From Candidatus Cloacimonetes bacterium HGW-Cloacimonetes-2 (GTDB lineage: Bacteria > Cloacimonadota > Cloacimonadia > Cloacimonadales > Cloacimonadaceae): 64,000 nucleotides of DNA. The notes under the pieces were generated by a model. It was not told where the DNA came from. It searched no databases and saw only the letters and a program-made list of their open reading frames with translations. Positions 32,725-63,815 of this stretch are shown here, one piece after another (the first letter of the stretch is position 1; each line of letters opens with the position of its first letter). The stretch is from the NCBI GenBank assembly GCA_002842035.1, contig PHBP01000002.1, forward strand, positions 62,001 through 126,000, given 5' to 3'. Made by a program: the position numbers and the translations under genes.

Positions 32725-32730
32725 AATCTA

Positions 32731-39464: not shown

Positions 39465-39497
39465 AGTAAAAACCGGGGAAGCTATGCCTCCCCGGTT
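39465..39497 (-). terminator. Terminator of the 158-aa gene
   Basis: The stem AACCGGGGA / TCCCCGGTT (39471-39479 with 39489-39497) has a 9-base loop. On the minus strand it is followed by TTTTTACTATATT. It lies 12 bp beyond the stop of the gene ending at 39510. The 80 bp between it and the next gene show nothing else. Confidence 0.85.
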
Positions 39498-39509
39498 CTT
39501 TCACGCCGA

Positions 39510-40517: not shown

Positions 40518-40528
40518 ATGAATGTCGT

Positions 40529-41092
40529 ATGTCGCACAACGAGCTTAACACGCTCAAGGGATACAAGTATGTATCCTAACTTCGTCTTAACCCGGGTAAA
40601 CTTATAGATGTTACCCGACTTTACTGCCTCGATCAGCCTGCAGCTGTAAAGTATATCGATGAACAGGATTCAGATGCCATCTATGTACCGGAGATCGACG
40701 CTTATATTCAGCAAGGAACTGACCAGCTTATTGAAATGACAGATGATAAGACTCTGTCTGAAATCAAGAAAGCTGTAAGGGCGATAACGTATAAACTTCA
40801 AATAGCAACGGAAAACAATGACCTTGCCGTTGCTGAGGATTGCAAGTCTCAGTTGGAGAAGTTCAATGATTACGTTTCAAAAGTTACTACTCCGCGTGGC
40901 AAGATCAAATACTTTGCAGACAGGACTCGGAGACATCAGTCTTCAGTGTATAGGGCTGTACAGCTTTATATAAAACAACTGCGCTTTATTGATGCTGCCG
41001 AAGCTGATTATATTGCAAAGCACGTAGTAATTGGAAGGGTATGCTATTGGTCTGTAGATCCAATCGATAGCCAGAGCATACTATCCGCTTAG
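40529..41092 (+). pseudogene. Unknown gene interrupted by an in-frame stop
   Basis: One reading frame runs from an ATG at 40529 to a stop at 41092, apart from a single TAA at 40577 (codon 17). The sequence after the TAA (LRLNPGKLIDVTRLYCLDQP...) looks like real protein for 52 codons before the next possible start, an ATG at 40736 that has no ribosome site. This suggests a 187-residue protein broken by a nonsense change. The C-terminal part is basic and helical (TRRHQSSVYRAVQLYIKQLR) and might bind nucleic acid; I recognise no family. The alternative is a shorter 118-aa gene starting at 40736. Confidence 0.5.
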
Positions 41093-41099
41093 AGAAAAC

Positions 41100-41127
41100 G
41101 CCCCCGCTTCGGCGGGGGCATTTGTTT
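41100..41127 (+). terminator. Rho-independent terminator
   Basis: An 8-bp GC stem GCCCCCGC / GCGGGGGC closed by a UUCG tetraloop, then ATTTGTTT. It lies 8 bp after the stop at 41092, showing that transcription of the interrupted gene was meant to end here. Confidence 0.9.
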
Positions 41128-41128
41128 A

Positions 41129-41157
41129 TTGACAAATCTTTGGCAATTTCATAGTAT
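41129..41157 (+). promoter_or_regulatory. Sigma70-like promoter for the 230-aa gene
   Basis: TTGACA (41129-41134), a 17-bp spacer and TAGTAT (41152-41157). The predicted start is about 30 bp before the ATG at 41194. It overlaps the T-tail of the preceding terminator. Confidence 0.8.
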
Positions 41158-41193
41158 GTCTTTATCAACAATCGGATTACAAGGAGTGTAGAA

Positions 41194-41886
41194 ATGTACA
41201 GCGAGGACTCATCTAATACCGGTAAACCTCAAGCCCTTCCCTTGGGCAATGATCGATTTACCCAAAGCCAATTGGACTACTTCAAGCTTAGAACCGAAGC
41301 CTATATCTCAATCTGGGAAGATACTATGCTTTGCGAGCTAATCAATTGCAATCTGTCTGACTATAGGTCTTTGTACTCAATGCGTAACGCCCTGCAAAGA
41401 GTCTATTGGGGTAATCATCTCAGAGAGGATCAGCTTTACAGGCTGATCCAGGCAGATTTGCGCATTTATACTGATCCCGACTATTCCAATATTGACAGCC
41501 AGTATCGTGATTTAATAGAAGAACTACTGGATCAGCACAATCTGATCTTCCTTTATCGAGAAAACAATCAGGAACATTACACTGATCGCGTTGAGGAAAA
41601 TCCAAATATCGATTACAAGTTCTATCAGTGGCAATGCGTCCTGAATAACCTGGGCGATAACTGGGAAAATGAAGAAAAGACTAAAGACTCTCTGATCTCC
41701 AGGTGGCAACTTGACCTTTTATATAAATCCGGTAGATTGTCTAGTGAGCAGACCACTAAACTAATAGAGCTTGATAAAAAGGTAATGCTATCCCCCAATT
41801 CCATCTATATGAACCGCTTCGAGCGTAGATTTATCTATAGCTTCCTTATGTCTCAAGGTGTATTCGATCGTATGTCGAAAGAATGA
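41194..41886 (+). CDS. Unknown soluble 230-aa protein
   Basis: A 230-residue protein without a signal peptide or membrane helix and of no family I recognise. It is acidic and tyrosine-rich, mostly predicted helical, with stretches such as LYSMRNALQRVYWGNHLREDQLYRLIQADLRIY that could pack as helical repeats. AAGGAG (41181-41186) and a consensus promoter support expression. It lies in the accessory zone between a broken gene and a truncated DUF3800 gene. No terminator follows before the next promoter. Confidence 0.7.
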   Translation: MYSEDSSNTGKPQALPLGNDRFTQSQLDYFKLRTEAYISIWEDTMLCELINCNLSDYRSLYSMRNALQRVYWGNHLREDQLYRLIQADLRIYTDPDYSNIDSQYRDLIEELLDQHNLIFLYRENNQEHYTDRVEENPNIDYKFYQWQCVLNNLGDNWENEEKTKDSLISRWQLDLLYKSGRLSSEQTTKLIELDKKVMLSPNSIYMNRFERRFIYSFLMSQGVFDRMSKE

Positions 41887-41925
41887 TGATGTTGATACCA
41901 AAATGGAATATCTAAAAAAAAGGAC

Positions 41926-41953
41926 TTGACATCAGGTTAGATCCGAATAAATT
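41926..41953 (+). promoter_or_regulatory. Sigma70-like promoter with no intact gene behind it
   Basis: TTGACA (41926-41931), a 16-bp spacer and TAAATT (41948-41953). AAGGAG follows at 41981 with an ATG at 41992, but that frame ends after eight codons. The signal set looks like the preserved 5' end of a lost gene. Confidence 0.65.
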
Positions 41954-41991
41954 GTAATTATCTCATCTACCATGATGTAGAAGGAGTAACG

Positions 41992-42015
41992 ATGCCGTCT
42001 ATAAATAGGCGGCAT
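41992..42015. repeat. Near-perfect palindrome at a gene-remnant junction
   Basis: ATGCCGTCTAT and ATAGGCGGCAT flank an AA loop, with one T/G mismatch that is a wobble pair in plus-strand RNA. It contains the plus-strand ATG and the stop of the minus-strand DUF3800 remnant. Confidence 0.7.
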
Positions 42016-42214
42016 TAGCCATTTTAAAGCAGTAGTATTCCTTTAGCAGTCTTTGATGATCTCTAGATCTGTCAACTATGTAAGCTTTAATGTCCGTGGA
42101 TATGCTTCTAACATGCTCTCTATCTACCCAAACTGCCCCTATCACCATGCTTTTCTGACCATCATTCTCCAGGTGGCACGATTCATCACAATAAACATTA
42201 TAGACTTTACACAT
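41999..42214 (-). pseudogene. Truncated DUF3800 protein (N-terminal 71 residues)
   Basis: The 71-residue product has the start of a DUF3800 protein: YNVYCDESCHLENDGQKSMVIGAVWV corresponds to the usual short strand with the acidic DES motif and the following hairpin. DUF3800 proteins, RNase H-like in fold, are normally 200-300 residues, so this one stops early inside the palindrome at 41992-42015. The start is well formed (GGAGAAGGAG before the ATG at 42214) and it is preceded 2 bp away by a small reading frame. It is most likely the 5' remnant of a larger gene cut off at this junction. Confidence 0.6.
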
Positions 42215-42216
42215 TG

Positions 42217-42372
42217 TTAAACTCCTTCTCCCATCTCCTCATCGACCTGTTTATAGAGCGGATCGATCTCTGTCTGAAGGCGGATGGTATGTGCCAGAGC
42301 AGTTACCACCTTGCAATAGTGGATTGGATCTACCACATCCTTCAAATAGTTCGTAAATAGCTGAGTATCCAA
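42217..42372 (-). CDS. Small 51-aa protein with TTG start, upstream of DUF3800
   Basis: A 51-codon frame opening with TTG at 42372, preceded by GAGGTG at good spacing, and ending two bases before the ATG of the DUF3800 remnant. The product (LDTQLFTNYLKDVVDPIHYC...) is amphipathic and acidic, ending EEMGEGV. The last codons contain the ribosome site of the next gene, a typical coupled pair. No family is recognised. It could be an accessory partner of the DUF3800 protein. Confidence 0.5.
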   Translation of the reverse strand: MDTQLFTNYLKDVVDPIHYCKVVTALAHTIRLQTEIDPLYKQVDEEMGEGV

Positions 42373-42471
42373 ATCAGCACCTCACTCAGTGAATTTCACT
42401 TTCTTGCAATAAGTTTTACATTATATATTTGGTCAATGCCTTTTTTAGTTTTTGGGGTTACGGGTAGCGAA

Positions 42472-42616
42472 TGTGGGAGCGACATCCTGTCGCTCTGATA
42501 GGCTGTGCGTCAGGATGACGCACCTACACAGGCTGGACAGGGATTGATTTTGAGTGAGATGTGGGAGCGAGCTCCTGTCGCTCTGATATGCAGTGCGTCG
42601 GGATGACGCACCTACA
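42472..42616. repeat. Two tandem REP-like palindrome doublets
   Basis: Two 57-bp units (42472-42528 and 42560-42616) are repeated with an 88-bp period. Each holds two hairpins, GAGCGACA/TGTCGCTC and GTGCGTCA/TGACGCAC. Their outer sequences TGTGGGAGCG and CGCACCTACA make the two hairpins an inverted pair of one REP-like consensus TGTRGGWGCG. This is the doublet arrangement of bacterial BIMEs. No transposase for them is visible. Confidence 0.85.
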
Positions 42617-42653
42617 ATAATGGCTTTGGGCAGCCCTCTCTCCCCTATCCCCT

Positions 42654-42865
42654 CTGCCTGATAGGATGCTTGTATCCTGCTTCTACCCTGCTTGAATCCT
42701 GCTTGAACAAGCATCAAACAACTGCGATATATGCACTTAGCATACCGGCACCCAATAGGCAAGCGTAAAGCACTGTCTTCTAAAGAATTGCCGGGAGATT
42801 CCCGGGCCTATCCCGGGTCTATCGCAGGTGTGGGCCTGTGGATCTCCCGGCTTGGGGCTTGCCTC
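42654..42865 (+). repeat. 210-bp structured repeat, copy C
   Basis: Its reverse complement matches 53595-53804 along its whole length, roughly four positions in five by eye. The tail (42662-42713) is the 11-bp-periodic module. The head contains a long inverted repeat GCCGGGAGAT (42790-42799) with ATCTCCCGGC (42842-42851) enclosing smaller stems. The interval to the next gene otherwise shows only A-rich DNA. Confidence 0.9.
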
Positions 42866-47973: not shown

Positions 47974-48212
47974 AACTGTAGCAGTTCTTTATCCAGTATT
48001 GCCGGCAAGTCCTCGGAGTGAACCTCGTGGTAGGGATTGCCGTTGATTGAGAGATTGGGTCCTTTGGAGCATTCGCCCATGCAGAGCGAACCTTCTATAT
48101 GGACGCTTTCACTAAGACCTTTGGTTCTAAGGTACTCCTCTATCACCTTGAGGTTTTCTCTGTTTTCCCTAGCAAAGCAGGAACTTCCCATGCAGATATG
48201 GATGGTCTTCAT
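47970..48212 (-). CDS. Thioredoxin-like [2Fe-2S] ferredoxin
   Basis: An 80-residue thioredoxin-fold ferredoxin. Its four cysteines follow the family spacing: C7 and C12 (CMGSSC) and C44, C48 (LCMGEC). It resembles the C-terminal domain of HydA and the N-terminal part of HydB, and similar small genes accompany sensory hydrogenases in other anaerobes. It probably passes electrons between the hydrogenase modules. It overlaps hydA (TAATG) and the sensory hydrogenase (ATGA). Confidence 0.88.
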   Translation of the reverse strand: MKTIHICMGSSCFARENRENLKVIEEYLRTKGLSESVHIEGSLCMGECSKGPNLSINGNPYHEVHSEDLPAILDKELLQL

Positions 48213-50209
48213 TAGTCCCTCACAGAGGCTTCTTTGCTGATCAGTTCCTTAATCTCTGCTAGTTTGGCATGGTGAATCACTTTGTCGCCAATACTGATGG
48301 TCGGGCCTTTGTCACATTGCTCGCTGCAGAAGGTGGCACCTATATCAAAGCGATTGCCCCAAGCATTCTCCTCGACCATTTGAAGGGTCTTGGCAAGGAT
48401 GTCCTGAGAACCACGCAGATAGCAGGAGGTACCTACGCAGACGCGAACCTTGCAACGATCCTCACTGCCTGTGCCGGAAAGGCTCAGCTCGTCATCATCG
48501 ATACGTTTACGATGTTTGTAAGCAGTATGCAGCAGTTCGTGTGCCTTGTGGCTATTGGGCTTGTCCAATAGAGCATCATAGAGCTCTGTAATAAAGGGAT
48601 TGTCCTGAGCTCTGTGCATAGGCATAGTCTTGTCAGCGTGATAAATTGACGTAGTACGATCCTTACGCTGCTTTTGGGATTGGACAATTGGCTGTCCTGC
48701 TCCGCCTGTGCAACCTCCCGGGCAAGCCATCACTTCAACGATATCATAATGTGTTTCTCCATTGACTATCTTGTCGCATAGCTCTTGTGCATTGCGAAGT
48801 CCATGCACTACAGCCATCTTGAGATTACCATCAGCAAGGCTGGCTTCACGCAGACCGGAACTACCACGTACTTCTTGCAGTACGATGCTTTCGGGTACAG
48901 GAATATCAAATTTGTCTGCAGCATATCGAAGTACTGCTTCGCTTACTCCACCGCTATTGCCAAAGATCACTCCGGCTCCGGTGGCAAAGCCCATTGGCAG
49001 ATCCATTGATTCAGGCTCTAGTCCACCCAGATCGATACCTGCTTCTTTGATCATTCTGCCCAATTCCTGAGTTGTAAGCACCACATCAACATCAGCGATG
49101 CCTTCGTGAGTAAACTCAGGACGCTTGCATTCATACTTCTTGGCGGTGCAAGGCATTATTGAAACTATAAAGAGCTTCTCTTTCTCTACCTTGAGCAGCT
49201 CCGGCAAGCGTTCTTTGGCAATTGCTCCAAACATCTGCTGGGGAGAGCGGCAACTGGAGAGATTGCCCAGGAGCTGGGGATAGCTTTGCTCTGCATACTT
49301 CACCCAGGCAGGGCAGCAGGATGTGAAAATCGGGAGCTTTTCGCCCTTGGCCTTACGAGAGATAAACTCATTTGCTTCTTCGATCACAGTAAGATCGGCA
49401 GAGAAAGCTGTATCAAAGACCTTCTCAAAGCCCAATATCCGCATTGCAGCGACCATCTTACCAGTCGTGATGTCTCCGGCTGGGAGATTGAACATCTCGC
49501 CCAAGGCTACTCGCACAGCGGGTGCAATCTGAGCAACTACGTATCTGTCATTGCTGTGGATAGCATCCCAGACTTGGGGAATATGGCTCTTGACTGTAAT
49601 AGCACCGGTGGGACATACAGCAGCGCACTGTCCGCAATTGACACAATCCACCTGGGATAAGCTTTTGCCATAGGCTGCAGCTACATTGACGTTTTGACCA
49701 CGAGCCGCAAAGTCTATCGCGCCTATGCCTTGAATCTCATCGCAGAACCTTACGCAATCACCACAGAGTACGCATTTATTGGGATCTCTTACTAGTGATT
49801 CGCTACCGAGATCTTTGGGCTTGCGCTCACGTGTCTGACGAAAACGAACCTTGTCTATCGATAGTCTGTTTGAGATATCACGCAGTTTGCAATCAGATGC
49901 ACGACTGCACTTTGTGCATTCCTGATCGTGATTGGCAAGCAGCATCTCGACGATAGTTTTACGCAGCTTGAGAATCTGATCTGTATGCGTCTTGATCCGC
50001 ATTCCTTCAAAAGGCTCCGTAGAGCAGGAAGTCACCAAACCTCTTCCCTCCAGCTCGACCATACAAAGCCTGCAAGCACCATAGATACTGAGCTCACTGT
50101 GGTAACAAAAGGTCGGAATCTCGATATGTGCCTTGCGAGCCAGGGCAAGGATATTGGTCTCGCCTTCCCAAAGGACAGGCCGGTCATTTATATAGATGTA
50201 TTTGTCCAT
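48212..50209 (-). CDS. hydA: Bifurcating [FeFe]-hydrogenase catalytic subunit HydA
   Basis: A 665-residue catalytic subunit that makes H2. Domains in order are a plant-type [2Fe-2S] (C35, C46, C49, C62), His-Cys3 (H94, C98, C101, C107), two 4Fe-4S (C146-C156 and C189-C199), the H-cluster domain with TSCCPAW (297-), MPCTAKK (352-358) and EVMACPGGC (492-500), and a C-terminal thioredoxin-like [2Fe-2S] domain (about 580-660). This layout with HydB and HydC is that of the trimeric enzyme that oxidises NADH and reduced ferredoxin together. GGGGAGA precedes the ATG. No maturation genes (hydEFG) are in the window. Confidence 0.95.
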   Translation of the reverse strand: MDKYIYINDRPVLWEGETNILALARKAHIEIPTFCYHSELSIYGACRLCMVELEGRGLVTSCSTEPFEGMRIKTHTDQILKLRKTIVEMLLANHDQECTKCSRASDCKLRDISNRLSIDKVRFRQTRERKPKDLGSESLVRDPNKCVLCGDCVRFCDEIQGIGAIDFAARGQNVNVAAAYGKSLSQVDCVNCGQCAAVCPTGAITVKSHIPQVWDAIHSNDRYVVAQIAPAVRVALGEMFNLPAGDITTGKMVAAMRILGFEKVFDTAFSADLTVIEEANEFISRKAKGEKLPIFTSCCPAWVKYAEQSYPQLLGNLSSCRSPQQMFGAIAKERLPELLKVEKEKLFIVSIMPCTAKKYECKRPEFTHEGIADVDVVLTTQELGRMIKEAGIDLGGLEPESMDLPMGFATGAGVIFGNSGGVSEAVLRYAADKFDIPVPESIVLQEVRGSSGLREASLADGNLKMAVVHGLRNAQELCDKIVNGETHYDIVEVMACPGGCTGGAGQPIVQSQKQRKDRTTSIYHADKTMPMHRAQDNPFITELYDALLDKPNSHKAHELLHTAYKHRKRIDDDELSLSGTGSEDRCKVRVCVGTSCYLRGSQDILAKTLQMVEENAWGNRFDIGATFCSEQCDKGPTISIGDKVIHHAKLAEIKELISKEASVRD

Positions 50210-50224
50210 TATTATCTCCCCTTA

Positions 50225-52117
50225 TTAGCTGATGGCTTTGAACTTACAGGTGCTTACGCAAGCACCGCACTTGATGCAGACCAGCGGATCGATACTATGC
50301 GGCTGTTTTACTTCACCGCTGATCGCGCCAACCGGACAGACTCTCTTGCAAAGGGTGCAGCCCTTGCAAATCTCCGGATCAATAGAGATCGGAGTGAGAG
50401 CTTTGCAAGAACGAGTAGGGCAATACTTTACCTTGACGTGAGCTTCGTACTCATCGCGGAAATAGCGCAGTGTGGAGAGCACAGGATTGGGTGCTGACTT
50501 GCCAAGCCCGCAAAGGGAAGTGATCTTCACCGCTTCACCGGCTTCCTGCAAAAGCTCCAAAGTCTCCTCCGTAGCTTCTCCGGCTACCACATCTTCCAGC
50601 ATCTCGAGCATCTGTCGTGTGCCTTCACGGCAGGGCACGCACTTCCCGCAGGATTCGTGCTGAGTAAAGGTCATAAAGTAGCGGGCAGTCTCGACCATAC
50701 AGGTGCTGTCGTTCATCACGACCATACCACCTGAGCCAACCATCGCACCAATAGTACCCAGTGAATCAAAATCCAGAGGGAAATCCAGATGTTCGCGAGT
50801 AAGGCAACCACCGCTGGGACCGCCTATTTGCACTGCTTTGAAGGCATCGTTGTTGATCTTGCCATCTTTATCAAGGACGCCACCGCCAATCTCAAAGACG
50901 ATCTCACGGATAGTCGTGCCAAAGGGAACTTCGATCAGTCCTGTATTGGCAACGTGTCCGGTAAGAGCAAAGGTCTTTGTGCCGGGAGATTTGGCTGTGC
51001 CAACACTGCGGAACTTATCCACTCCCTGTTGCAAGACGATAGGCACAAGGGCAAGGGTCTCAACGTTGTTGATCACAGTCGGCTTGCCAAAGAGTCCTTT
51101 CTGAGCAGGGAAAGGCGGCTTGGGATTGGGCATTCCACGCTTGCCTTCGATTGATGCCAGGAGAGCTGTTTCTTCTCCGCAGACAAATGCACCGGCACCT
51201 TCCATCACATTGATGCGAAAGCCTTTACCACTGCCAAAGACGTCGTCGCCCAGGATACCGTAATCTTCGGCAATCTTGATCGCTTTGCGGATACGTGTGC
51301 AAGCCAGCGGATACTCCATACGGACATAAACATAGCCTTCATCAGCACCGATAGCTCTGGCTGCAATCATCATTCCTTCGATCACGCTGTGGGGATTGCC
51401 TTCCAGGATAGATCTATCCATAAAAGCACCCGGATCACCTTCGTCTCCGTTGCAAACCACATACTTCTTTTCGTTGTCTTCACGACGGGCAAAATCCCAC
51501 TTTAATCCTGTGGAAAAGCCACCGCCGCCACGTCCACGCAAGCCGCTATCCTGATAGAGCTTGCAGAGTTCTTCCGGGCTGTATTTGGTGTAGGCATCAC
51601 GAGCGGAAAAGTAACCGCCATGCGCAATGTATTCACTGATATTCTCAGGATCAACGTGCCCGCAATCCTTGAGCCCGGTACGGCTTTGGCGCGTGTAAAA
51701 AGGTATCTCGGCTGTGCCTTTGTAGGCCTTGCCGCTCACCGGATCGTGATATAGCAAGCGCTCGATCAGCTCATCCCTGAGGATTGATTTCTCTACAATC
51801 TCTTCTGTATCTTCAGGTTTCACGTGGCCATACATAATACCTGCAGGCTCAATTGTGACCAGCGGACCTACCTGGCAAAAGCCCTGGCAACCGCTACCGA
51901 CCATATAGACATCGTGATCCTTGTGATCGGTGTGATCATCAGATTTGAGCGATACAGTAATATCCAGGCCTCTGAGGGCGATAGAGTTTTTGAGGCTCTC
52001 AAAGACTTTGAGCGAACCATTGGCAATACAACCGGTTCCTGCGCAGACCACTATACGCTTCTTGCAGCGTGCACGAGCTTCATTGTAGGCATCGCGAATT
52101 TGTTCCAGCTTAGGCAT
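50225..52117 (-). CDS. hydB: Bifurcating hydrogenase flavoprotein subunit HydB (NuoF-like)
   Basis: A 630-residue NuoF-like subunit that binds FMN and NADH and is the likely bifurcation site. It has an N-terminal thioredoxin-like [2Fe-2S] domain (VVCAGTGC ... GCQGFCQ, residues about 20-115), the flavin/NADH core with GLRGRGGGGFSTGLKW and AGAFVCGEETALLASIEG, the 4Fe-4S motif SCGKCVPCREGT, and two C-terminal 4Fe-4S motifs (CKGCTLCKRVCP, CIKCGACVSTC). The start overlaps the hydC stop by 8 bp, and hydA follows after 15 bp. Confidence 0.96.
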   Translation of the reverse strand: MPKLEQIRDAYNEARARCKKRIVVCAGTGCIANGSLKVFESLKNSIALRGLDITVSLKSDDHTDHKDHDVYMVGSGCQGFCQVGPLVTIEPAGIMYGHVKPEDTEEIVEKSILRDELIERLLYHDPVSGKAYKGTAEIPFYTRQSRTGLKDCGHVDPENISEYIAHGGYFSARDAYTKYSPEELCKLYQDSGLRGRGGGGFSTGLKWDFARREDNEKKYVVCNGDEGDPGAFMDRSILEGNPHSVIEGMMIAARAIGADEGYVYVRMEYPLACTRIRKAIKIAEDYGILGDDVFGSGKGFRINVMEGAGAFVCGEETALLASIEGKRGMPNPKPPFPAQKGLFGKPTVINNVETLALVPIVLQQGVDKFRSVGTAKSPGTKTFALTGHVANTGLIEVPFGTTIREIVFEIGGGVLDKDGKINNDAFKAVQIGGPSGGCLTREHLDFPLDFDSLGTIGAMVGSGGMVVMNDSTCMVETARYFMTFTQHESCGKCVPCREGTRQMLEMLEDVVAGEATEETLELLQEAGEAVKITSLCGLGKSAPNPVLSTLRYFRDEYEAHVKVKYCPTRSCKALTPISIDPEICKGCTLCKRVCPVGAISGEVKQPHSIDPLVCIKCGACVSTCKFKAIS

Positions 52118-52610
52118 TTTCCTTCTCCTCTGCTTCGATTTTAGCGATCAGTTGTAAAGCCTGCTCAGGCGTAACCTGACCGTGTACCTCGTCATCAACA
52201 ACCAACACGGGCGCCAGACCGCAAGCTCCCAGGCAGGAGACGGTCTCAAAAGTGTACATCATATCGTCTGTGGTGATCTTCTTGGGCGTAAGATTGAGCT
52301 TTGCCCGGATCGCATCGATCACAGCGGAAGAACCACGCACGTGGCAGGCAGTACCATCACACATCTTTAGGATATGCTTACCTTTGGGCTCGAGAGAAAA
52401 GTGGCTGTAAAAGGTAGCCACGCCATAGAGACGGGCTGGAGAGACGCCCAGGGAAGTAGCGATAAAGGTCATCACTTCCTGAGGCAAATAGCGGTATTCT
52501 TCTTGCACCGCCTGCAAAATCGGGATGATCTTGGTCTCGCTGCGTTCAAAGCGATCCAGAATCTCCATCACCTTGTTGAAGCTGTGAGCTGCTGCGTAAG
52601 TCGCACTCAT
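52110..52610 (-). CDS. hydC: Bifurcating hydrogenase subunit HydC (NuoE-like)
   Basis: A 166-residue thioredoxin-fold NuoE-like subunit with one [2Fe-2S] cluster. The ligand cysteines lie in CDGTACHVRGS and the later SCLGACGLAPV. The preceding helical region (ETKIIPILQAVQEEYRYLPQEVM) is typical. AGGAG precedes the ATG at 52610. It is the first structural gene of the hydrogenase operon, 93 bp after rex. Confidence 0.95.
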   Translation of the reverse strand: MSATYAAAHSFNKVMEILDRFERSETKIIPILQAVQEEYRYLPQEVMTFIATSLGVSPARLYGVATFYSHFSLEPKGKHILKMCDGTACHVRGSSAVIDAIRAKLNLTPKKITTDDMMYTFETVSCLGACGLAPVLVVDDEVHGQVTPEQALQLIAKIEAEEKENA

Positions 52611-52703
52611 TGTTACTCCTGTATCTATTTTTTAATGATTTATTAAGACGTACTTTTAGAACCAAGGTAAAACTTGTGATTTGGCTCGGAACCTGCGACT
52701 ATG

Positions 52704-53354
52704 CTATATCAAGTCCCGGGGAGCAGTATTGTAAAGCTTTTCAGCAACTCTGCGCGATAAGACGGCAAGAGAAGCGCTCATATCGATGTTTTCGACTATG
52801 ATCTCGGTTGGTAGCTCCAGCTTGACCGGAGTAAAATTCCAAATGGCGATAACGCCGTTTTCAACCATCAGATTTGCCACTTCCTGCGCTGCTTCGGCAG
52901 GAGTCGTAATAATCCCGATATGGACGTGCAATCTGGATAAAAGATTAGTAAACTTGTCCATTCCATAGATCGGGATGCCATGCAGATATGAACCAGTGGC
53001 TTCAGGCTTGGCATCAAAGGCGGCAATAATGCGCAGCCCCTTGCGACTAAGCTCCGAATATCCCATCAATGCCTTGCCCAGATGACCTACGCCTACCAGG
53101 AAGCAGGAGCTAACATCATTCCAATTGAGACATTGCTCGATGGCATTGATCAGATCGTCGATGCGATGGCCAACCTTGGGCGTGCCGACCACACCTGTGT
53201 AAGCCAGGTCTTTGCGAACCTGCGTCATATGTACATCGGTAAAGACCGCTATCTTGGTAGCAGTAACGGTTCTGATCCCGGTCTTCTTGAGCTGGTATAG
53301 AGTCTCAAGATACTTGGGCAATCTCTTCAGAGTCAAAATCGGTATCGAATCCAT
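52704..53354 (-). CDS. rex: Redox-sensing transcriptional repressor Rex
   Basis: A 216-residue Rex repressor, which senses the NADH/NAD+ ratio and releases DNA when NADH is high. An N-terminal winged helix (residues 1-75, with TQVRKDLAYTG) precedes the Rossmann domain with GVGHLGKAL (88-96) and AAFDAKPEATG. A domain-swapped C-terminal helix ends the protein. GAGGA precedes the ATG. Its place before hydCBA predicts that it controls the hydrogenase and probably itself. No textbook Rex palindrome is visible in the flanking DNA; an imperfect repeat array lies just upstream. Confidence 0.94.
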   Translation of the reverse strand: MDSIPILTLKRLPKYLETLYQLKKTGIRTVTATKIAVFTDVHMTQVRKDLAYTGVVGTPKVGHRIDDLINAIEQCLNWNDVSSCFLVGVGHLGKALMGYSELSRKGLRIIAAFDAKPEATGSYLHGIPIYGMDKFTNLLSRLHVHIGIITTPAEAAQEVANLMVENGVIAIWNFTPVKLELPTEIIVENIDMSASLAVLSRRVAEKLYNTAPRDLI

Positions 53355-53921: not shown

Positions 53922-53951
53922 TTGACAAAGAGGCTTTGATCCGCGTAGAAT
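53922..53951 (+). promoter_or_regulatory. Sigma70-like promoter for the tandem ATP-grasp genes
   Basis: TTGACA (53922-53927), an 18-bp spacer and TAGAAT (53946-53951). The expected start leaves a leader of about 33 bases before the ATG at 53991. Confidence 0.8.
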
Positions 53952-53990: not shown

Positions 53991-56960
53991 ATGAAGATGG
54001 AAGAACTGAACTATTATTATAACAAGTTCAAATTCGGTGAGGACATATTCCACCAGTTGATGCAGAAGCGTGTGCGGGACATCCTGTTGGTTTCAACGTT
54101 TTACGATGCATTTATCTTTGAACAGGATGGCAGACTTTCGGAGCAAATCTTTGGCGAATACCGTCAGCTCAATCTTACTACAGCACCGCGCATAACCAGC
54201 GTTCCGACCGGTGAGGATGCCCTCGAAATCCTCAAGAAGCAGAGCTTTGATCTCGTGATCACAATGATGCGTATAGGTGATATCGGGCCATTTCAACTCG
54301 CAAAAGAGATCAAGTCCAAACAGCCGGATTTGCCGGTTTTGCTGCTTCTAAATGTCGCATCTGATTACGTAATCTGGGAGAATCATACCGAAGACAGGCA
54401 GTATATCGATGACGTTTTCCTCTGGAACGGTGATACGAAGCTGTTTTTGGCAATGGTCAAGAACGTTGAAGACCAGATGAACGTGGCTTTTGACACAGCT
54501 CACGGATTGGTACGTGTGATCCTGCTGGTCGAAGATTCGCTGCATTATTACTCCCTGTTTTTGCCTTCTCTGTATTCTGTGATAATGAAGCAGACACAGC
54601 GGTTGATCGAAGAAGAAGTAAGCGATATCAACAAAAGGCTCAGGATGCGTATCCGTCCCAAGGTGCTATTGGCGCACGATTACGAAGAAGCAGTCGAGCT
54701 TTATGACCGTTACAAGGAATATATGCTCTGTGTGATCTCTGATATCCGCTACAAAGTAGGCGGAGAGGTCGATCCCAAGGCTGGTTTCAAGCTAATTGAT
54801 CACGTGGTCAGCAGCAATTCTGAGCTACCCATCATCCTGCAGAGTTCTGAGGATGAAAACGAAGAGCCAGCCAGAGCCAAGGGTGCGCATTTCCTGAACA
54901 AAAACTCCAAGCATCTATTTTCTGATCTTAGGGCTTTTATGGTTTATAATCTGGGTTTTGGCAATTTTATCTTTCGTAGCGCGGATGGCTCGGTTATCGA
55001 TGAAGCTGCCAATATCGCGGAATTTGAGGAGAAAATCCTCACCGTGCCCGAAGAGACCATAGTTTTTCACAGTAAGTTCAATCACTTTTCAAACTGGCTG
55101 ATAGCCCACGGTGAAGTACAGATTGCCAAGCGCATCAGGCCGATGAAGATAGATGACTTCTCCAGCAAAGAGGAGCTAAGACAGTTTCTGCATCATACCT
55201 TCAGGACGGTTAGAATAGATAAAAACCGGGGAAAGATCATCAATTTTGATGCAGTCTCGCTGGCGGAGATGAACCAGATTATCAGGCTGACAGAAGGTTC
55301 TCTGGGTGGTAAAGGGCGCGGTCTGGCATTTCTCAATGCTTTGCTTTGCACGATGGATTACGAACGCAAATACGAGAATATCTCGATCTCTCTGCCCTCC
55401 ACCGCAATCATTGGAACTAATGAATTTGATAGTTTTGTGGAATCCAACAATATCCAGGAAAAGGTGGTCGGCAAGACTGATGATGAGATAGATTGCATCT
55501 TTATTGCCGGGAAACTTTCCAGGCAATTGGTGGAAAGACTGCAGATATATCTGGATCATATCCACTATCCCGTGGCTGTGAGATCTTCTTCGCTATTGGA
55601 AGATTCTCAGGCTCAGCCTTTGGCAGGTGTTTACCGCACCTTTATGCTGCCTAATAATCATAATGATCCGCATTACCGTCTGGTGCAATTGATGAATGCG
55701 ATCAAGCTGGTCTTTGCTTCGGTCTATCTGTCTGATGCCAGGGCATTTCTGGAAGCTCTGAATTTTAAGGCGGAAGAAGAAAAGATGGCGGTGATTATTC
55801 AGGAAGTGGTGGGTAGTCCCAAAGGTGAAAACTATTACTATCCCCAAATTTCGGGCGTGGCTCAATCTTATAACTTCTACCCCACCTCGCATATGCAGCA
55901 TACGGATGGAATAGCCAATATTGCTTTGGGATTGGGCAAATCAGTGGTTGAAGGAAAGCTGAATTTCCGCTTTTGCCCCAAGTATCCGGAGACTGAAATG
56001 CTGCCCCAGATGGAGATGATGCGTACAAGTCAAAAGGAGTTTTATGCCCTTGATCTCTCCAGAAGCGATTTTGACCTCAAGAAAGGCGAGGAGATTACTC
56101 TCGCCAAGCTCTTGATCAAAGATGCGGAGCAGCACAATGTACTAAGGTACATCGCCTCGGTGTGGGATTTTGAAAACTACCGGCTCACAGATAACCTTGA
56201 TGAGAAGGGAATGAAGGTGCTTACCTTTGCCGGGATATTGAAGTATAACTACTTCCCACTTGCCAAGATAGTCGAGGAACTGCTGGAGATTGGAGAGATC
56301 GCCCTGGGTATCCCGGTCGAGATTGAGTTTGCCGTCAATCTGGAATATGATTCGATTCATAATCATAAGCCTACCTTCTATATTTTGCAGATCAGACCTC
56401 TTTCGGTGAATACGGATGCCTATCGGATCGATGCGGAGAAGTTGGTGAAGAATGAGCTTTTGATGTACACTGAGCATGGGATGGGCAATGGTGTTATCGA
56501 TGATCTTTATGATGTAGTTTTCCTTGATCCCAATTGTTTTGACAAGACAAAGACGGTCGAGATGCAGGCTGAGATCGAGCGATTCAACGAGAAGATGGCT
56601 CGGGAAGGCAAGCGTTATATGTTGATCGGTCCCGGTAGATGGGGTTCCAGAGACCGTTTCCTGGGGATACCGGTGCGTTGGCCTCAAATCAACCGTGCCA
56701 AGGTTATCCTGGAGACTGGGCTGAGTGATTTTATTGTTGAAGCGAGCCAGGGAACACACTTCTTCCACAATCTGGTAGCGATGAATGTGGGCTATTTTAC
56801 GATTCCATATGTATCACAGACAGACTTTGTGGATTGGAACTGGCTCTTGGATCAGGAGGAGATAGAGCGAGGTAACTACTTTGTACATTTGGCTTTTAAG
56901 AAGCCATTGATAGTGAGAATGGATGGAAAGACTGGACTGGCGGTAATCCACAAAGTGTAG
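53991..56960 (+). CDS. Double receiver-like / PEP-synthase-type ATP-grasp protein, copy 1
   Basis: A 989-residue protein. Residues about 25-160 form a receiver-like domain without the phospho-acceptor Asp. Residues about 173-320 form a second receiver-like domain with a candidate acceptor D251 (VISDIRYK). Residues about 430-815 are the ATP-binding domain of PEP synthase/pyruvate phosphate dikinase: GSLGGKGRGLAFL (436-448), VAVRSSSLLEDS, PLAGVYRTF and QIRPLS. The C-terminal 130 residues (GPGRWGSRDRFLG, SQGTHFFHN) are not part of classical PEP synthase. The phosphohistidine (GG.TSH) and PEP-barrel domains are absent. The ATG at 53991 follows GAGG by 9 bases. It probably transfers phosphate from ATP to an unknown acceptor. 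Confidence 0.8.
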   Translation: MKMEELNYYYNKFKFGEDIFHQLMQKRVRDILLVSTFYDAFIFEQDGRLSEQIFGEYRQLNLTTAPRITSVPTGEDALEILKKQSFDLVITMMRIGDIGPFQLAKEIKSKQPDLPVLLLLNVASDYVIWENHTEDRQYIDDVFLWNGDTKLFLAMVKNVEDQMNVAFDTAHGLVRVILLVEDSLHYYSLFLPSLYSVIMKQTQRLIEEEVSDINKRLRMRIRPKVLLAHDYEEAVELYDRYKEYMLCVISDIRYKVGGEVDPKAGFKLIDHVVSSNSELPIILQSSEDENEEPARAKGAHFLNKNSKHLFSDLRAFMVYNLGFGNFIFRSADGSVIDEAANIAEFEEKILTVPEETIVFHSKFNHFSNWLIAHGEVQIAKRIRPMKIDDFSSKEELRQFLHHTFRTVRIDKNRGKIINFDAVSLAEMNQIIRLTEGSLGGKGRGLAFLNALLCTMDYERKYENISISLPSTAIIGTNEFDSFVESNNIQEKVVGKTDDEIDCIFIAGKLSRQLVERLQIYLDHIHYPVAVRSSSLLEDSQAQPLAGVYRTFMLPNNHNDPHYRLVQLMNAIKLVFASVYLSDARAFLEALNFKAEEEKMAVIIQEVVGSPKGENYYYPQISGVAQSYNFYPTSHMQHTDGIANIALGLGKSVVEGKLNFRFCPKYPETEMLPQMEMMRTSQKEFYALDLSRSDFDLKKGEEITLAKLLIKDAEQHNVLRYIASVWDFENYRLTDNLDEKGMKVLTFAGILKYNYFPLAKIVEELLEIGEIALGIPVEIEFAVNLEYDSIHNHKPTFYILQIRPLSVNTDAYRIDAEKLVKNELLMYTEHGMGNGVIDDLYDVVFLDPNCFDKTKTVEMQAEIERFNEKMAREGKRYMLIGPGRWGSRDRFLGIPVRWPQINRAKVILETGLSDFIVEASQGTHFFHNLVAMNVGYFTIPYVSQTDFVDWNWLLDQEEIERGNYFVHLAFKKPLIVRMDGKTGLAVIHKV

Positions 56961-56973
56961 TAGGCAGCAGGCA

Positions 56974-59916
56974 ATGATCAATTCGAATTATTGGTCAGCA
57001 GAACTGGAAAGGCTGGAGCAGCTAATGCCTTATCGCGTTCAGCACGTCCTGCTGATTGCGTCCTTGTACGATTCATTTGTGTTTGAGGTCGATGGTTTCC
57101 TGGCAGAGCAAGTGGCATCAGACTTTTATTTGCTCAATCTCAGTACTCAGCCGGGTATCTTTCACGCATCGGGCACTGAGGGTGCGCTCAAGCTGCTTGA
57201 GTTGGAAAAGATCGATATAGTGGTCGTGCATCTGGCTTCGATGCGCACAATCGCACTTGAGCTTTTACGCGCTGTCAAGGACAAGTATCCCGATACACCG
57301 GTCTTTTTCCTCCTGGGAGCGCCGCTGGATCTGATGTTTGTCGAGAATCACATCCCAGATCTGGCTCCGGTAGATGATTTCTTTTATTGGAATGGTGATT
57401 CAAAGCTATTTCTGGCTATGATCAAGCTCTGGGAAGAGCATCAGAATCTGCAGCACGATACATCTCTGATGCAAGTACCTGTGATCCTCGTGATTGAGAC
57501 CTTTATACCTTATTACTCACAGTTTTTACCGTTATTTTTGGAGCTTATACTGCAATTGAACCAGTCTGTGATCAGAGGAGAGCATCAGGATGTAAACAAA
57601 GCTCTCTATATGAAAGCCAGGCCGAGGGTGATACTCTTGCACGACTACCAGACAGCGGTCGAGACCTATGAGAAGTATAGCGGGAATGTGATCGGTATTA
57701 TCAGCAATATCAATTACGATCACCGGGCTCAGACGGATCGTGATGCGGGACTCAGGCTCCTGCAGTATATCCGTAAACGCAAGCCCACTTTGCCATTTCT
57801 CTTGCAGTCATTCAACCCTATGTATAGGGATATCGTTACAGCCAGCGAAGGTGACTTCCTCTACAAAGACTTGCCCGGCCTGAGGGTGCAAGTCAAGAGA
57901 TGGCTGGAATCGGAGGTCGGATTTGGCAGATTTGTCTTTAGGGGTGCTGATCACGTCAAGATCGATGAAGCAGGAACTTTGATTGGTTTTGTGCATAGAT
58001 TAAGTGTAATCCCGGATGATTCTTTGGAATATCACTATCGTGGGGGACATATCTGTAATTGGCTCAAGACTCACGCAGAGCTTGCTTTGGCGGAGTATAT
58101 CGGAGGCTTGAAGGATTACCAGTCGGTTTCGCAACTGAGAGATGACTTATGCGAGGCTTTCAGTTCACTGATCTCATTCCGCAGAAGGGAAAAGATCCAG
58201 GATTGGAACGAAGAAGCTGATCTGCAGATGAATCTGATCTACAAGATCGGAGATGATTCGATCGGAGGTAAAGGACGCGGGCTGGCATTCCTGAATGTGA
58301 TGCTAAATCGCTATAGCGAGATCTGCGAGAAGTATCCCGGAGTCAATATCAGCGTGCCGGTTGCGGCTATCCTTGCCACAGGTGAGTTTGATAAGTTTAT
58401 CAATGCTAATCCAATGCTTCAGGGAATTGGGACAAGGGACGATCTGACTGATAAAGAGATCGATGAGCTCTTTCTGGAGTGTACTATACCCTATGATACG
58501 TTACAGATACTAAGCCAGGTAATTGAACAAACGAGATATCCTCTGGCTATCCGTTCCTCCAGTGTACTTGAGGATTCCATTACCAATCCTTTTGCGGGAG
58601 TCTTTAGAACCTTTCTGATCCCCAATAGCCACACCAAGGATGAGCTCAGGCTGCAACAACTTATTCAGGCTGTAAAGCTCGTTTATGCCTCAATGTATCT
58701 GAAAGGAGCACGCGTCTATCGAGAATCGCTAAGGATACCATCCCGCGAGGAAAAGATGGCAGTGATTATACAGAAAGTGGCAGGCTCTATGCATGGGGAT
58801 TACTTCTACCCTTTGGTCTCCGGAGTAGCTCAATCATACAATTACTATCCCAGTACCAATATGAAGCACGAGGATGGAGTCGTTACCTTATCAACAGGCC
58901 TGGGTAAGACAGCGGTGGAACGGGAGCGTACATTTGCTTTTTGCCCCAGGTATCCCAATAAAGATATGTTTACAGCTATCAATATTGTGGAGGGAGCTCA
59001 GAGAAGACTCTATGCCATTATGCCGGAGAAGAGGGATTTTGATCTGCGCAGCGGAGAAGATTCATCTCTGGGGAGACTGAGGATTTCTCAAGCGCTTTTA
59101 GAGAATGAACTGGAACTGCTTTCCTCCGTATGGGATCACGATAACAAGGAGTTTATAGCTGGTAAATACGCCAAAGGGCCTCGCGTGATAACATATCGAT
59201 CATTGCTCCATTACAGGCAGTATCCACTTGCTGATATACTAAAGGACTTTCTGGAGCTTGGCAGGCTGGTGATGGGTTGCGAGATCGAGATGGAATTTGC
59301 CTTTGATGTAGATAGCCGAAGATCCGAAGCAAGCTTTTATCTATTGCAGATACGACCGATCACAGTAAGTCAAAAGCTCTACTCCAGCTCTCTTGAGCAT
59401 TGGGCAGCCAAGCGAGAGCAGTTGCTGGCATTTTCTTCTTATGCCTTGGGAAGCGAGATGGATGAAGAGCTGGATATAATTGTGTATATACACCCATCCA
59501 AGTTTGACATTATCAAGACAGAAGAGATAGCAGCAGAGCTGGAAGATATCAATCAACAGCTCAAAGCAATGGACAAGAAATACATCCTGGCAGGAGCAGG
59601 CAGGTGGGGCTCCAGTGATAGATTTCTGGGTGTGCCCGTGGCGTGGAGTCAGATCTCAGCAGCTAAACTCATTATTGAAGTAGTGCTTCCCAATATGTCT
59701 ATAGAAGCCTCTCACGGCTCTCATTTTTTCCATAACCTCTTCTCAATGAATGTAGGCTATCTAACGATTTGGGACAAGGCAGCTAAAGACTTTATCGACT
59801 GGGATGCAATGGAAGAAATGGAGCCCTTGATCACAGGCAAGTATATCAGTGTGTGTAAATATAAAGCAAGTCTCAAGATTTTATTTGACGGAAAGAACGC
59901 AGTCATATTAAAGTGA
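56974..59916 (+). CDS. Double receiver-like / PEP-synthase-type ATP-grasp protein, copy 2
   Basis: A 980-residue paralogue of the preceding gene, 13 bp downstream and colinear with it throughout. The same blocks are present: SIGGKGRGLAFLN, LAIRSSSVLEDS, PFAGVFRTF, QIRPITV, then GAGRWGSSDRFLG and SHGSHFFHN. A key difference is in the second receiver-like domain, where the candidate acceptor Asp of copy 1 is Asn (IISNINYD). The first receiver-like domain also lacks an acceptor Asp. As in copy 1, no phosphohistidine or PEP-barrel domain is found. Close packing and kept motifs suggest a paired complex or a regulator/catalyst pair; this is inference. Confidence 0.8.
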   Translation: MINSNYWSAELERLEQLMPYRVQHVLLIASLYDSFVFEVDGFLAEQVASDFYLLNLSTQPGIFHASGTEGALKLLELEKIDIVVVHLASMRTIALELLRAVKDKYPDTPVFFLLGAPLDLMFVENHIPDLAPVDDFFYWNGDSKLFLAMIKLWEEHQNLQHDTSLMQVPVILVIETFIPYYSQFLPLFLELILQLNQSVIRGEHQDVNKALYMKARPRVILLHDYQTAVETYEKYSGNVIGIISNINYDHRAQTDRDAGLRLLQYIRKRKPTLPFLLQSFNPMYRDIVTASEGDFLYKDLPGLRVQVKRWLESEVGFGRFVFRGADHVKIDEAGTLIGFVHRLSVIPDDSLEYHYRGGHICNWLKTHAELALAEYIGGLKDYQSVSQLRDDLCEAFSSLISFRRREKIQDWNEEADLQMNLIYKIGDDSIGGKGRGLAFLNVMLNRYSEICEKYPGVNISVPVAAILATGEFDKFINANPMLQGIGTRDDLTDKEIDELFLECTIPYDTLQILSQVIEQTRYPLAIRSSSVLEDSITNPFAGVFRTFLIPNSHTKDELRLQQLIQAVKLVYASMYLKGARVYRESLRIPSREEKMAVIIQKVAGSMHGDYFYPLVSGVAQSYNYYPSTNMKHEDGVVTLSTGLGKTAVERERTFAFCPRYPNKDMFTAINIVEGAQRRLYAIMPEKRDFDLRSGEDSSLGRLRISQALLENELELLSSVWDHDNKEFIAGKYAKGPRVITYRSLLHYRQYPLADILKDFLELGRLVMGCEIEMEFAFDVDSRRSEASFYLLQIRPITVSQKLYSSSLEHWAAKREQLLAFSSYALGSEMDEELDIIVYIHPSKFDIIKTEEIAAELEDINQQLKAMDKKYILAGAGRWGSSDRFLGVPVAWSQISAAKLIIEVVLPNMSIEASHGSHFFHNLFSMNVGYLTIWDKAAKDFIDWDAMEEMEPLITGKYISVCKYKASLKILFDGKNAVILK

Positions 59917-59963: not shown

Positions 59964-61313
<1,350 letters not shown>

Positions 61314-61363: not shown

Positions 61364-62491
61364 ATGGATGATATGAAGAGTAAAGCAATTAACGAAGCAG
61401 GTATTCTGGCAGCTCTGCAAGAGCGCGTCAAAGAACTCGATTGTCTATACCAGATTGGCGATATAGCACAACAGCCTGATCTGGAGACACGTGAAATACT
61501 CAGCAGGATAATCAGTATTATCCCTGCAGCAATGCAATATCCCCATCTCGCCGGAGCAAGACTGATGCTGGATGGAAACGCCATCAGTAGCCACACAGTA
61601 GTTCAAGGTCCTGTCCAAATCAGCGCTGATATCTTTGTGAACTACATCAACCGTGGCATACTGGAAGTCTTTTATCAAAGCGAGTCCGATGGCTCTCTAC
61701 CAAGCTTTCTCCCGGAAGAAGAGCGCTTGCTGAATACGATTGCCAAGCAAATCTCGCTGGTGATCGAGCGCCGCAGCGTAGAAGAATACAATAGCAAACT
61801 GCAAGAACAGCTCAGACACGCAGACAGATTGGCCACGATAGGTCAGTTAGCTGCAGGAATTGCTCACGAGATCAATGAGCCTCTTGCTACAATTATGGGC
61901 TATGCCCAATTGATCGATGAGGAAGAAGACATCTCTCAGCAGGTCAAACAAGACACAGGGCGCATCATTAGCGCCGCCTTGCATGCCCGGGAAGTAATCC
62001 GTAAACTGATGCTTTTCTCGCGGCAGGTTCCCCCGAATAAGGTGGAACTAAATCTGAACAAAGTTATCACCGATGGCTTCTACTTTTTGGAAAGCCGTTG
62101 CGAAAGACAATCCATAGAGATTGAAAAAGATCTTGATCCTGCCAATCCCACCATTGTAGCCGATGCCAGCCAGATTCATCAGGTGATGGTCAATCTGGTA
62201 GTAAACGCTATGCATGCGATGCCAGAAGGCGGAAAGCTCACTTTGCGTACCAAACAACTGAAAGACTCCGTCCTCTTCAGTGTAGCTGACACAGGCACGG
62301 GGATGACTGACGAGATCAAAAGCAAGGTCTTTATACCATTTTATACTACGAAGGACATCAATCAAGGCACAGGGCTGGGGCTCTCTGTGGTTCACGGCAT
62401 TATTAGCAGCCACAACGGCAAAATCGAGGTGGATAGCAAACTGGGTAAAGGCAGCATTTTTAACATCTATTTTGAGGTAAGACATGCCTGA
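61364..62491 (+). CDS. Soluble sensor histidine kinase with GAF-like domain
   Basis: A 375-residue histidine kinase. Residues about 10-135 form a GAF-like sensor without membrane helices. A short coiled segment leads to the H-box AGIAHEINEPLA (phosphorylated His), then the N-box NLVVNAMHAMPEGG, and G-boxes DTGTGMT and GTGLGLSVVHGI. No ribosome site precedes the ATG at 61364; the next ATG (61373) has none either. Its stop region overlaps the response regulator by 8 bp, so the two are a pair. The signal is unknown; the neighbouring gdhA hints at nitrogen or amino-acid status. Confidence 0.9.
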   Translation: MDDMKSKAINEAGILAALQERVKELDCLYQIGDIAQQPDLETREILSRIISIIPAAMQYPHLAGARLMLDGNAISSHTVVQGPVQISADIFVNYINRGILEVFYQSESDGSLPSFLPEEERLLNTIAKQISLVIERRSVEEYNSKLQEQLRHADRLATIGQLAAGIAHEINEPLATIMGYAQLIDEEEDISQQVKQDTGRIISAALHAREVIRKLMLFSRQVPPNKVELNLNKVITDGFYFLESRCERQSIEIEKDLDPANPTIVADASQIHQVMVNLVVNAMHAMPEGGKLTLRTKQLKDSVLFSVADTGTGMTDEIKSKVFIPFYTTKDINQGTGLGLSVVHGIISSHNGKIEVDSKLGKGSIFNIYFEVRHA

Positions 62492-63815
62492 CAACAAGAC
62501 TCCGATTCTGATCGTGGATGATTCAATTGATACTCTGGAGATGATAGCCCGAAAGCTCAATTCGCATGGCTTTAGCTGCTATAGTGCCCAAAGCGTGGAA
62601 CGGGCTCTTGATATACTTGGCAAGACCGAGATTGATCTTGTTTTGACAGATTATAAGATGCCTAAACACAGCGGATTGGACTTGATCCGCCACCTCAGGG
62701 ATCATCATCCTAATACGCGTGTGATAATGATTACAGGCTATCCGACCATTGAAGGAGCAGTAGAGGCTGTGAAGTTTGGAGCTGAAGAATATCTTACAAA
62801 GCCATTTACAGATGAGGAGTTGTTCGGCGCTATCAGCAGTGCCCAAGCCAAGATATTGCAGCAAAAGATCGCCACCAAGCCTCATTCCACCCAGGGCAAT
62901 CCTTATGGAATGATCGGCTTATCAACTCCAATGACCAAGGTTTACAATAGCATCAAGAAATCAGCAGCAAACAACGCCACCGTACTGATCAGCGGTGAAA
63001 GCGGAACCGGTAAGGAACTGGTTGCCAGAGCTATCCACTACAATTCCAAACGTAGCAAAGCTCCTTTTGTGCCTGTCAATTGTGGTGCTATTCCCGAAAC
63101 GCTGCTCGAAGCAGAGTTATTCGGCTACACAAAGGGATCTTTTACCGGAGCAACCGAGACCAGAGCCGGCTATTTCCTCACTGCGGATGGAGGTACGATC
63201 TTCCTCGATGAAATCAGTGAAACCTCCCTATCGATGCAGGTCAAGTTACTCCGGGTTCTGCAAGACAAACAGGTCACTATGATCGGCTCAAAACAAGCCC
63301 GCTCTGTCAATATTCGCGTAATCGCATCTACAAACAAAGACCTGCAACAGCTTATCCTTCAGGGCAGCTTTAGGGAAGATCTGTATTACAGGCTAAACGT
63401 CCTGCCTATCGCCCTGCCTGCCTTACGCGAACGCGGCGATGATGTATCCATCCTGGCCAGCCACTTCCTCGAGAAGTTTGCCCGCGAAAACGCACAAACT
63501 CCGCCTCATATCTCTGATGATGCTTTGGAGGCTTTGAAGAAATACCAATGGCCTGGAAACGTCCGTGAGCTGGAGAATCTGATCTACAGGCTGATGGTGA
63601 TGAGCGAAGACCGCCAGATCAATGTAAGCGATTTGCCCGATTATCTCAAATTCACAATCAACCGTAGCAAAAACCTCAACCGTAGCCTGGAAGAGGTTGA
63701 AATGGAGTATATTTCCGATGTCTTGGCATCTGTCAATGGTAACAAAAGTCTTGCTGCCAGAATCTTGAAGATTGACAGAAAAACGCTGCACAACAAGCTG
63801 AACATCAAGGAATAA
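62484..63815 (+). CDS. Sigma54-dependent response regulator (NtrC/AtoC family)
   Basis: A 443-residue activator: receiver domain (acceptor D56 in VLTDYKMP), AAA+ sigma54-interaction domain (Walker A GESGTGKE, Walker B GGTIFLDEI), and a C-terminal Fis-type helix-turn-helix (NKSLAARILKIDRKTLHNKL). The sigma54-contact loop reads GSFTGA instead of the usual GAFTGA. It overlaps the histidine kinase gene by 8 bp. Its targets are unknown, and I could not identify a -24/-12 promoter with confidence in this window. Confidence 0.94.
   Translation: MPDNKTPILIVDDSIDTLEMIARKLNSHGFSCYSAQSVERALDILGKTEIDLVLTDYKMPKHSGLDLIRHLRDHHPNTRVIMITGYPTIEGAVEAVKFGAEEYLTKPFTDEELFGAISSAQAKILQQKIATKPHSTQGNPYGMIGLSTPMTKVYNSIKKSAANNATVLISGESGTGKELVARAIHYNSKRSKAPFVPVNCGAIPETLLEAELFGYTKGSFTGATETRAGYFLTADGGTIFLDEISETSLSMQVKLLRVLQDKQVTMIGSKQARSVNIRVIASTNKDLQQLILQGSFREDLYYRLNVLPIALPALRERGDDVSILASHFLEKFARENAQTPPHISDDALEALKKYQWPGNVRELENLIYRLMVMSEDRQINVSDLPDYLKFTINRSKNLNRSLEEVEMEYISDVLASVNGNKSLAARILKIDRKTLHNKLNIKE

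Follow-up and report, generated by a model that had tools for sequence, protein, structure and literature searches.

A tandem pair of receiver and ATP-grasp proteins linked to glutamate dehydrogenase in Cloacimonadota

Two adjacent genes of a Cloacimonadota bacterium, here called A and B, encode paralogous proteins that join two receiver domains to a PPDK-type ATP-grasp domain and a conserved C-terminal domain (CTD). They are directly followed by gdh, the gene of glutamate dehydrogenase (GDH). Because relatives of A and B adjoin gdh in many phyla, the two proteins are tentatively read as dedicated, signal-gated and ATP-dependent regulators of the adjoining GDH. The window, meaning the whole analysed stretch of 64,000 nucleotides, contains the following features around the pair.

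48212-52610, minus strand: HydA/HydB/HydC-like [FeFe] hydrogenase genes (translations read)
52704-53354, minus strand: Rex-like regulator (translation read)
53922-53951, plus strand: sigma-70-like promoter, TTGACA-18-TAGAAT
53991-56960, plus strand: gene A (P0001), ATG start, 989 aa, REC1-REC2-linker-PPDK_N-CTD
56974-59916, plus strand: gene B (P0002), ATG start, 980 aa, the second copy
59976-61313, plus strand: gdh, glutamate dehydrogenase (ELFV dehydrogenase; PF00208 8.9e-91, PF02812 2.2e-50)
61364-62491, plus strand: soluble histidine kinase (HisKA 3.3e-12, HATPase_c 4.4e-23)
62484-63815, plus strand: NtrC-type sigma-54 response regulator (Sigma54_activat 3.6e-70, Response_reg 1.8e-27)

An earlier note on this DNA had described two neighbouring paralogues of 989 and 980 aa. 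Both open reading frames were verified; they lie on the same strand, separated by 13 bp, and their products are 39% identical over the full length. An in-frame TTG at 53973 is a possible alternative start of gene A, but the ATG at 53991 is preferred because of the promoter position and the GAGG ribosome site preceding it. Judged by consensus match alone, the promoter (11 of 12 positions) is the best of the region. The gdh gene lies immediately 3' of gene B, the gene of the NtrC-type regulator overlaps that of the histidine kinase, and the order A, B, gdh, histidine kinase, NtrC-type regulator is kept on one strand, the genes being closely spaced or overlapping. A sigma-54 promoter in front of gene A would have linked this gene to the NtrC-type regulator. 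The idea was rejected: a scan of the window gave 27 weak matches versus 33 expected, and none before gene A is convincing. Upstream, the Rex-like and HydABC-like genes (48212-53354, minus strand) are divergent neighbours of gene A. HydABC-like genes also occur near the A/gdh cluster in loci of several phyla (L069, L071, L073), hinting that amino-acid fermentation is connected with hydrogen production. Two separate observations concern the surroundings. In Cloacimonadota, the cluster repeatedly ends with a gene of the nitroreductase family (L031:3105-3674, L034:3556-4134, L037:10281-10850, L028:8497-8907). Elsewhere in the window, an open reading frame with a TTG start (31443-32792, minus strand) overlaps at its 5' end with a tRNA-Asp (32731-32808, minus strand), so the true start of the frame is probably further downstream.

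Both proteins have the layout receiver-receiver-helical linker-PPDK_N (ATP-grasp)-CTD, with the following boundaries.

54072-54440, plus strand: REC1 of A, residues ~28-150, degenerate (Pfam Response_reg 64-119, residue table, fold)
54504-54950, plus strand: REC2 of A, residues ~172-320, acceptor site complete
54966-55280, plus strand: helical linker of A, residues ~326-430, weakly DUF5752-like
55299-56435, plus strand: PPDK_N ATP-grasp domain of A, residues 437-815 (Pfam 2.1e-38)
56448-56957, plus strand: CTD of A, residues ~820-989, motifs GPGRWGSxDxxLGIP and SxGTHFF
58255-59376, plus strand: PPDK_N of B, residues 428-801 (Pfam 2.4e-33)
59377-59913, plus strand: CTD of B (from alignment)

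Pfam, the structure model and homology agree with the architecture proposed earlier, i.e., two receiver-like domains, a PPDK-type ATP domain and a conserved CTD. PPDK_N (PF01326), as found in PEP synthase and PPDK, is recognized in both proteins. A Pfam search of A and B gives no match to PEP-utilizers (PF00391) or to PEP-utilizers_C (PF02896, the TIM barrel). This absence is taken as real, since the genuine PPDK of the genome (L030) shows its three PPDK domains in the identical search, which also recognizes PF00391 in a further protein encoded there, of 1381 aa. Hence, the earlier claim that the phosphohistidine swivel and the PEP barrel are missing stands, and no standard phosphohistidine or PEP-binding domain was detected in either protein. 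The motifs GGKGRGL, RSSS..EDS, EEKMA, GLGK, E-EFA and LQIRP are present in A and B and kept across ~60 relatives; the ATP-site motifs RSSS..EDS and QIRP, which the earlier note had already singled out, are thus intact in both. The full-length model of A was built from a 7-sequence alignment and has a pLDDT of 63 overall, mostly 75-90 in the receivers and below 50 in parts of the ATP-grasp domain, and is usable for the receivers and the CTD only. A fold search with this model gives the tandem-receiver protein PleD as the best PDB match, followed by PPDK (1kbl) and rifampin phosphotransferase. Within the linker, H360 and H365 are invariant in alignment A1; its DUF5752 score is below the curated cut-off in P0001, and one relative barely exceeds it.

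The receivers differ in their residues. REC2 of A has the residues of a two-component response regulator (E181, D182, D252 with codon 54744-54746, S285 and K304), whereas REC1 and REC2 of B do not. Pfam Response_reg is above threshold in A (4.4e-9) and sub-threshold in B (0.2), so that the label of receiver in B rests on homology. In a table of 49 sequences, REC1 is without the acid pair and the acceptor Asp in every member. The REC2 acceptor set is kept in A-type proteins of every sampled phylum and in the first or single copies of Cloacimonadota, including the single-copy loci L039, L045 and G085, and is gone from the second copies of pairs, both in B (D to N or S) and in A2 (L041-L044, G110). 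Protein B of the window thus has no acceptor Asp in either receiver (D to N in REC2) and retains the ATP site and the CTD motifs. Going by these residues, conventional phosphorylation of REC1 is excluded in A and B alike, and REC2 would be phosphorylation-competent in A alone of the two. Tandem receivers of which one is degenerate are known from PleD-type regulators; in A, however, the degenerate receiver comes first, and the output is an ATP-grasp domain instead of GGDEF. REC1 of all tabulated sequences and REC2 of second copies, B included, are aspartate-less receivers (ALRs). The receiver-PPDK_N combination was listed in 2015 as enriched in such receivers, with a bacterial function not assigned (PMC4395418). 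Those ALR-PPDK proteins likewise carry a receiver on a PPDK-type effector, and the Asp is missing from REC1 and REC2 of B; A-type proteins differ from them by a complete, Asp-containing REC2.

The ATP-grasp domain places A and B among enzymes of known chemistry. PEP synthase (PpsA) and PPDK share with them an ATP-grasp with GGKG, RSS..ED and LQ.R motifs, but A and B have neither swivel nor PEP barrel and carry tandem receivers in front and a different C-terminal domain. In a PDB profile search, the ATP-grasp part matches PEP synthase and rifampin phosphotransferase (RPH; 5hv6, 5fbs), the latter, grouped with PigC/RedH, being its closest solved sequence relative. The full-length NCBIfam models of PigC/RedH and PEP synthase score 14-51 bits, below their cut-offs of 999-1350. 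RPH carries rifampin-binding and phosphohistidine domains; neither is recognizable in A or B. A metabolic role is therefore to be weighed: A and B could be AMP-forming kinases whose CTD binds a small molecule, in the manner of the substrate domains of RPH or PigC, phosphorylating or ligating a metabolite related to glutamate or 2-oxoglutarate, with the receivers regulating flux. The nearest sequence relatives being substrate-specific dikinases and ligases (RPH, PEP synthase and the PigC/RedH models), as well as the metabolic neighbourhood of GDH and HydABC-like hydrogenase, are consistent with it. However, all of these relatives have a swivelling phosphohistidine domain, which is absent here and not obvious in trans, and the receivers and the switchless duplicate point to regulation more than to catalysis, which makes the metabolic kinase rather unlikely. 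The earlier suggestion of a signalling or metabolic phosphotransferase with built-in regulation is plausible but unspecific; the neighbourhood favours control of GDH, a connection absent from the earlier note.

The CTD belongs to no Pfam family, and a PDB sequence search with it gave no meaningful match. Modelled alone, it reaches a pLDDT of 82 and a pTM of 0.81; a fold search with this model found nothing convincing in the PDB (best E 0.04, TM 0.25) or among viral models. In alignment A3 (44 diverse sequences), the invariant CTD residues include R883, W884, D888, E908, S919, G921 and H923 (numbering of A; H923 codon 56757-56759). The resemblance of SxGTHFF to GGxTSHAA raised the candidate of a diverged phosphohistidine swivel. 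Profile comparisons with PPDK and the 1381-aa protein were negative, as was the fold search, and swivel homology was hence rejected; H923 may nevertheless play the same role as the swivel His. A stand-alone phosphohistidine domain acting in trans was rejected as well, as PF00391 occurs in just three proteins of the genome, each of them larger (PPDK, the 1381-aa protein and one of 576 aa). The 1381-aa protein (L029:2668-6813; G000:C2, about 38667-42812) is an observation in its own right: it consists of an unassigned N terminus of ~880 aa, PPDK_N and a C-terminal phosphohistidine domain, and has no PEP barrel.

The linkage to gdh is the main evidence for the preferred reading, regulation of GDH. 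In Cloacimonadota, gdh comes next after B in 10 of 10 loci that have B and a downstream flank (the window, L026-L028, L031, L034-L038), and histidine kinase and NtrC-type genes share the cluster with A, B and gdh. Downstream of the pairs of A and A2, gdh comes next in L041, L042, L044 and L080, and not in L043; the single-A loci L032, L039, L048, L064 and L076 show no gdh adjacency. Outside Cloacimonadota, gdh lies within 5 kb in 8 of 14 genomes versus 0.12 expected (P about 4e-14, which treats genomes as independent and overstates significance); these are G149, G175, G178, G190, G205, G221, G227 and G254, and no gdh lies within that distance in G127, G154, G177, G229, G243 and G272. GDH is present in every family-bearing genome tested outside Cloacimonadota. 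In the phylum of G178, 10 of 16 genomes have gdh next to the gene, mostly in convergent orientation, and the linkage thus outlasts rearrangement. Two gdh genes flank gene A in Parabacteroides and Phocaeicola, one of them divergent from it and the other several kb away; in Prevotella (L050), gdh was looked for and is not adjacent. Overall, gdh recurs directly next to genes of the family, in many cases at 13-600 bp and in varying orientation. Pair and gdh also come and go together. In the GTDB family of the window, the pair and a second gdh are jointly present or absent (21/3/1/22, Fisher 3.6e-9), a table that treats genomes as independent, so its significance is overstated, and that contains a few pair calls from partial contigs. 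Presence and absence are both seen within genera g3, g4, g6 and g10, and since such within-genus switches are repeated in four genera, they hold regardless of genome independence.

A diverged, receiver-less form of the family consists of PPDK_N and CTD (about 580 aa). Its partner of ~1050 aa has an N-terminal region, PPDK_N, CTD and a nucleotidyltransferase reminiscent of GlnD/GlnE-type nitrogen control, and the two are often joined by a 285-aa protein of unassigned family. A second type of gdh adjoins this pair in L033, L040, L046, L047, L083, L102 and L103, with histidine kinase and NtrC genes upstream in L033, L046 and L083. An alternative is that A and B are general energy or redox signalling proteins and that the proximity of gdh reflects a shared amino-acid-fermentation island (HydABC, Rex), with no GDH-specific role. 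The HydABC-like genes near the cluster in the window and in the three further loci, and the missing gdh adjacency in 6 of 14 outside genomes, are what such an island would predict; the immediate recurrent neighbour, however, is gdh rather than hydrogenase, in varying orientation, the diverged receiver-less system likewise stands beside a gdh, and pair and gdh are lost together. This makes an island effect the least probable of the explanations weighed here.

The family is old and widespread. A match to A is found in 99 of 125 Cloacimonadota genomes. In a sample of 165 other bacterial genomes that spans families, at least 14 have relatives of nearly full length; the phylum of G178 has them in 56 of 80 genomes, and the phylum of G190 in 5 of 5. 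Relatives outside Cloacimonadota are mostly single copy. To the question raised in the earlier note of whether the proteins always occur as pairs, the neighbourhood survey gives a negative answer; obligatory pairing is ruled out by the single copies usual in most other phyla, and the tandem pair is a derived state of Cloacimonadota and a few other genomes. In the tree, the B copies cluster as a single clade, nested in the Cloacimonadota sequences and set off by a very long branch (1.66). Bacteroidales relatives, annotated as "PEP/pyruvate-binding domain-containing protein," are homologous and co-linear over the full length, CTD included; WP_041525632.1, for example, shows 38-39% identity over about 98% of the length, shares the CTD motifs, adjoins gdhA as a single copy and has no named function. 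Relatives of A and B were also sought in viral contigs, where none was confirmed, and in plasmid records, where three Bacteroidales relatives lie on records that appear chromosomal. In Parabacteroides and in a genome of another phylum, genes of a RapZ-C/APH-like kinase and a nucleotidyltransferase adjoin gene A (L049:11003-14214, with an endonuclease/phosphatase-family gene; L086:3636-5785); they probably represent conserved synteny with a separate function.

The phosphorylation, acceptor, target and sign of regulation that we infer take the following form. A partner histidine kinase, perhaps that of the cluster, would phosphorylate D252 in REC2 of A, whose acceptor residues are present; the cluster kinase could also serve the NtrC-type regulator alone. 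REC1 and the helical linker would pass the signal to the ATP-grasp domain, which would run PPDK/PEP-synthase-type chemistry. As the swivelling phosphohistidine domain is missing, the CTD is the most likely taker of the phosphoryl group, and H923, which is invariant, the best candidate acceptor; that the CTD has no resemblance to a phosphohistidine domain counts against this proposal. From the CTD, the phosphoryl group would go to GDH or to a partner controlling it, switching GDH activity with the nitrogen or redox state. Protein B, the duplicate in which the switch was lost while the ATP site and CTD persisted, would probably be the constitutive half of an A-B complex. As sequence-level evidence, the linkage fits a protein that acts on GDH as well as one that just shares its pathway.

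The title of a 1996 article (Baggio & Morrison 1996, cited in PMC4539542) speaks of trans-acting gene(s), downstream of gdhA, on which the GDH activity of Bacteroides thetaiotaomicron depends. An A-type protein is perhaps this factor; the orientation of the gene in Parabacteroides and Phocaeicola is insufficient alone to equate the two. A 3-kb fragment reportedly restored GDH activity in trans in E. coli in that work; such a fragment could hold a gene of about 2.97 kb. A trans-acting effect on activity, as in the title, would also suit a non-catalytic, ATP-sensing activator or assembly factor that binds ATP and GDH and whose complex is altered by receiver phosphorylation with no phosphoryl transfer. 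Such a factor would explain why no phosphate-acceptor domain is recognizable and is in line with the loss of the switch in one duplicate. However, conservation in ~60 sequences of many phyla extends to all ATP-grasp motifs and, in the CTD, to the His/Asp/Glu/Arg set, which exceeds the needs of simple binding and makes this reading improbable, if slightly less so than the fermentation island.

A published characterization of this architecture, which the earlier note would have taken as refuting, was found in part only: the combination is listed (PMC4395418) and the Bacteroidales proteins are annotated; a literature search for a functional study of the receiver-PPDK_N-CTD family found none. The architecture itself is already visible in databases. 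As far as searched, no description exists of the linkage to gdh, of the split between the receivers, of pairs as a derived state, of the parallel system without receivers or of the unmatched CTD.

GDH is a main enzyme of ammonia assimilation or amino-acid fermentation in gut Bacteroidales and anaerobic digesters, where the control of its activity is, to our knowledge, poorly understood. A family of many phyla that stays with gdh through rearrangement, duplication and loss is a concrete and testable candidate controller. It has a phosphotransferase core without the canonical phosphate carrier and a CTD without a known fold match, so both chemistry and fold may be new. The "PEP/pyruvate-binding" proteins of Bacteroidales would require re-annotation. 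A more far-reaching version, which we regard as doubtful though a little less so than the metabolic kinase, is an ancient and unrecognized nitrogen control, in which a two-component-gated ATP-grasp dikinase, with His923 of the CTD replacing the swivel, reversibly modifies GDH. If true, it would explain how a trans-acting gene controls GDH activity in Bacteroides, and two parallel versions, receiver-bearing and nucleotidyltransferase-bearing, would exist, each with its own GDH type.
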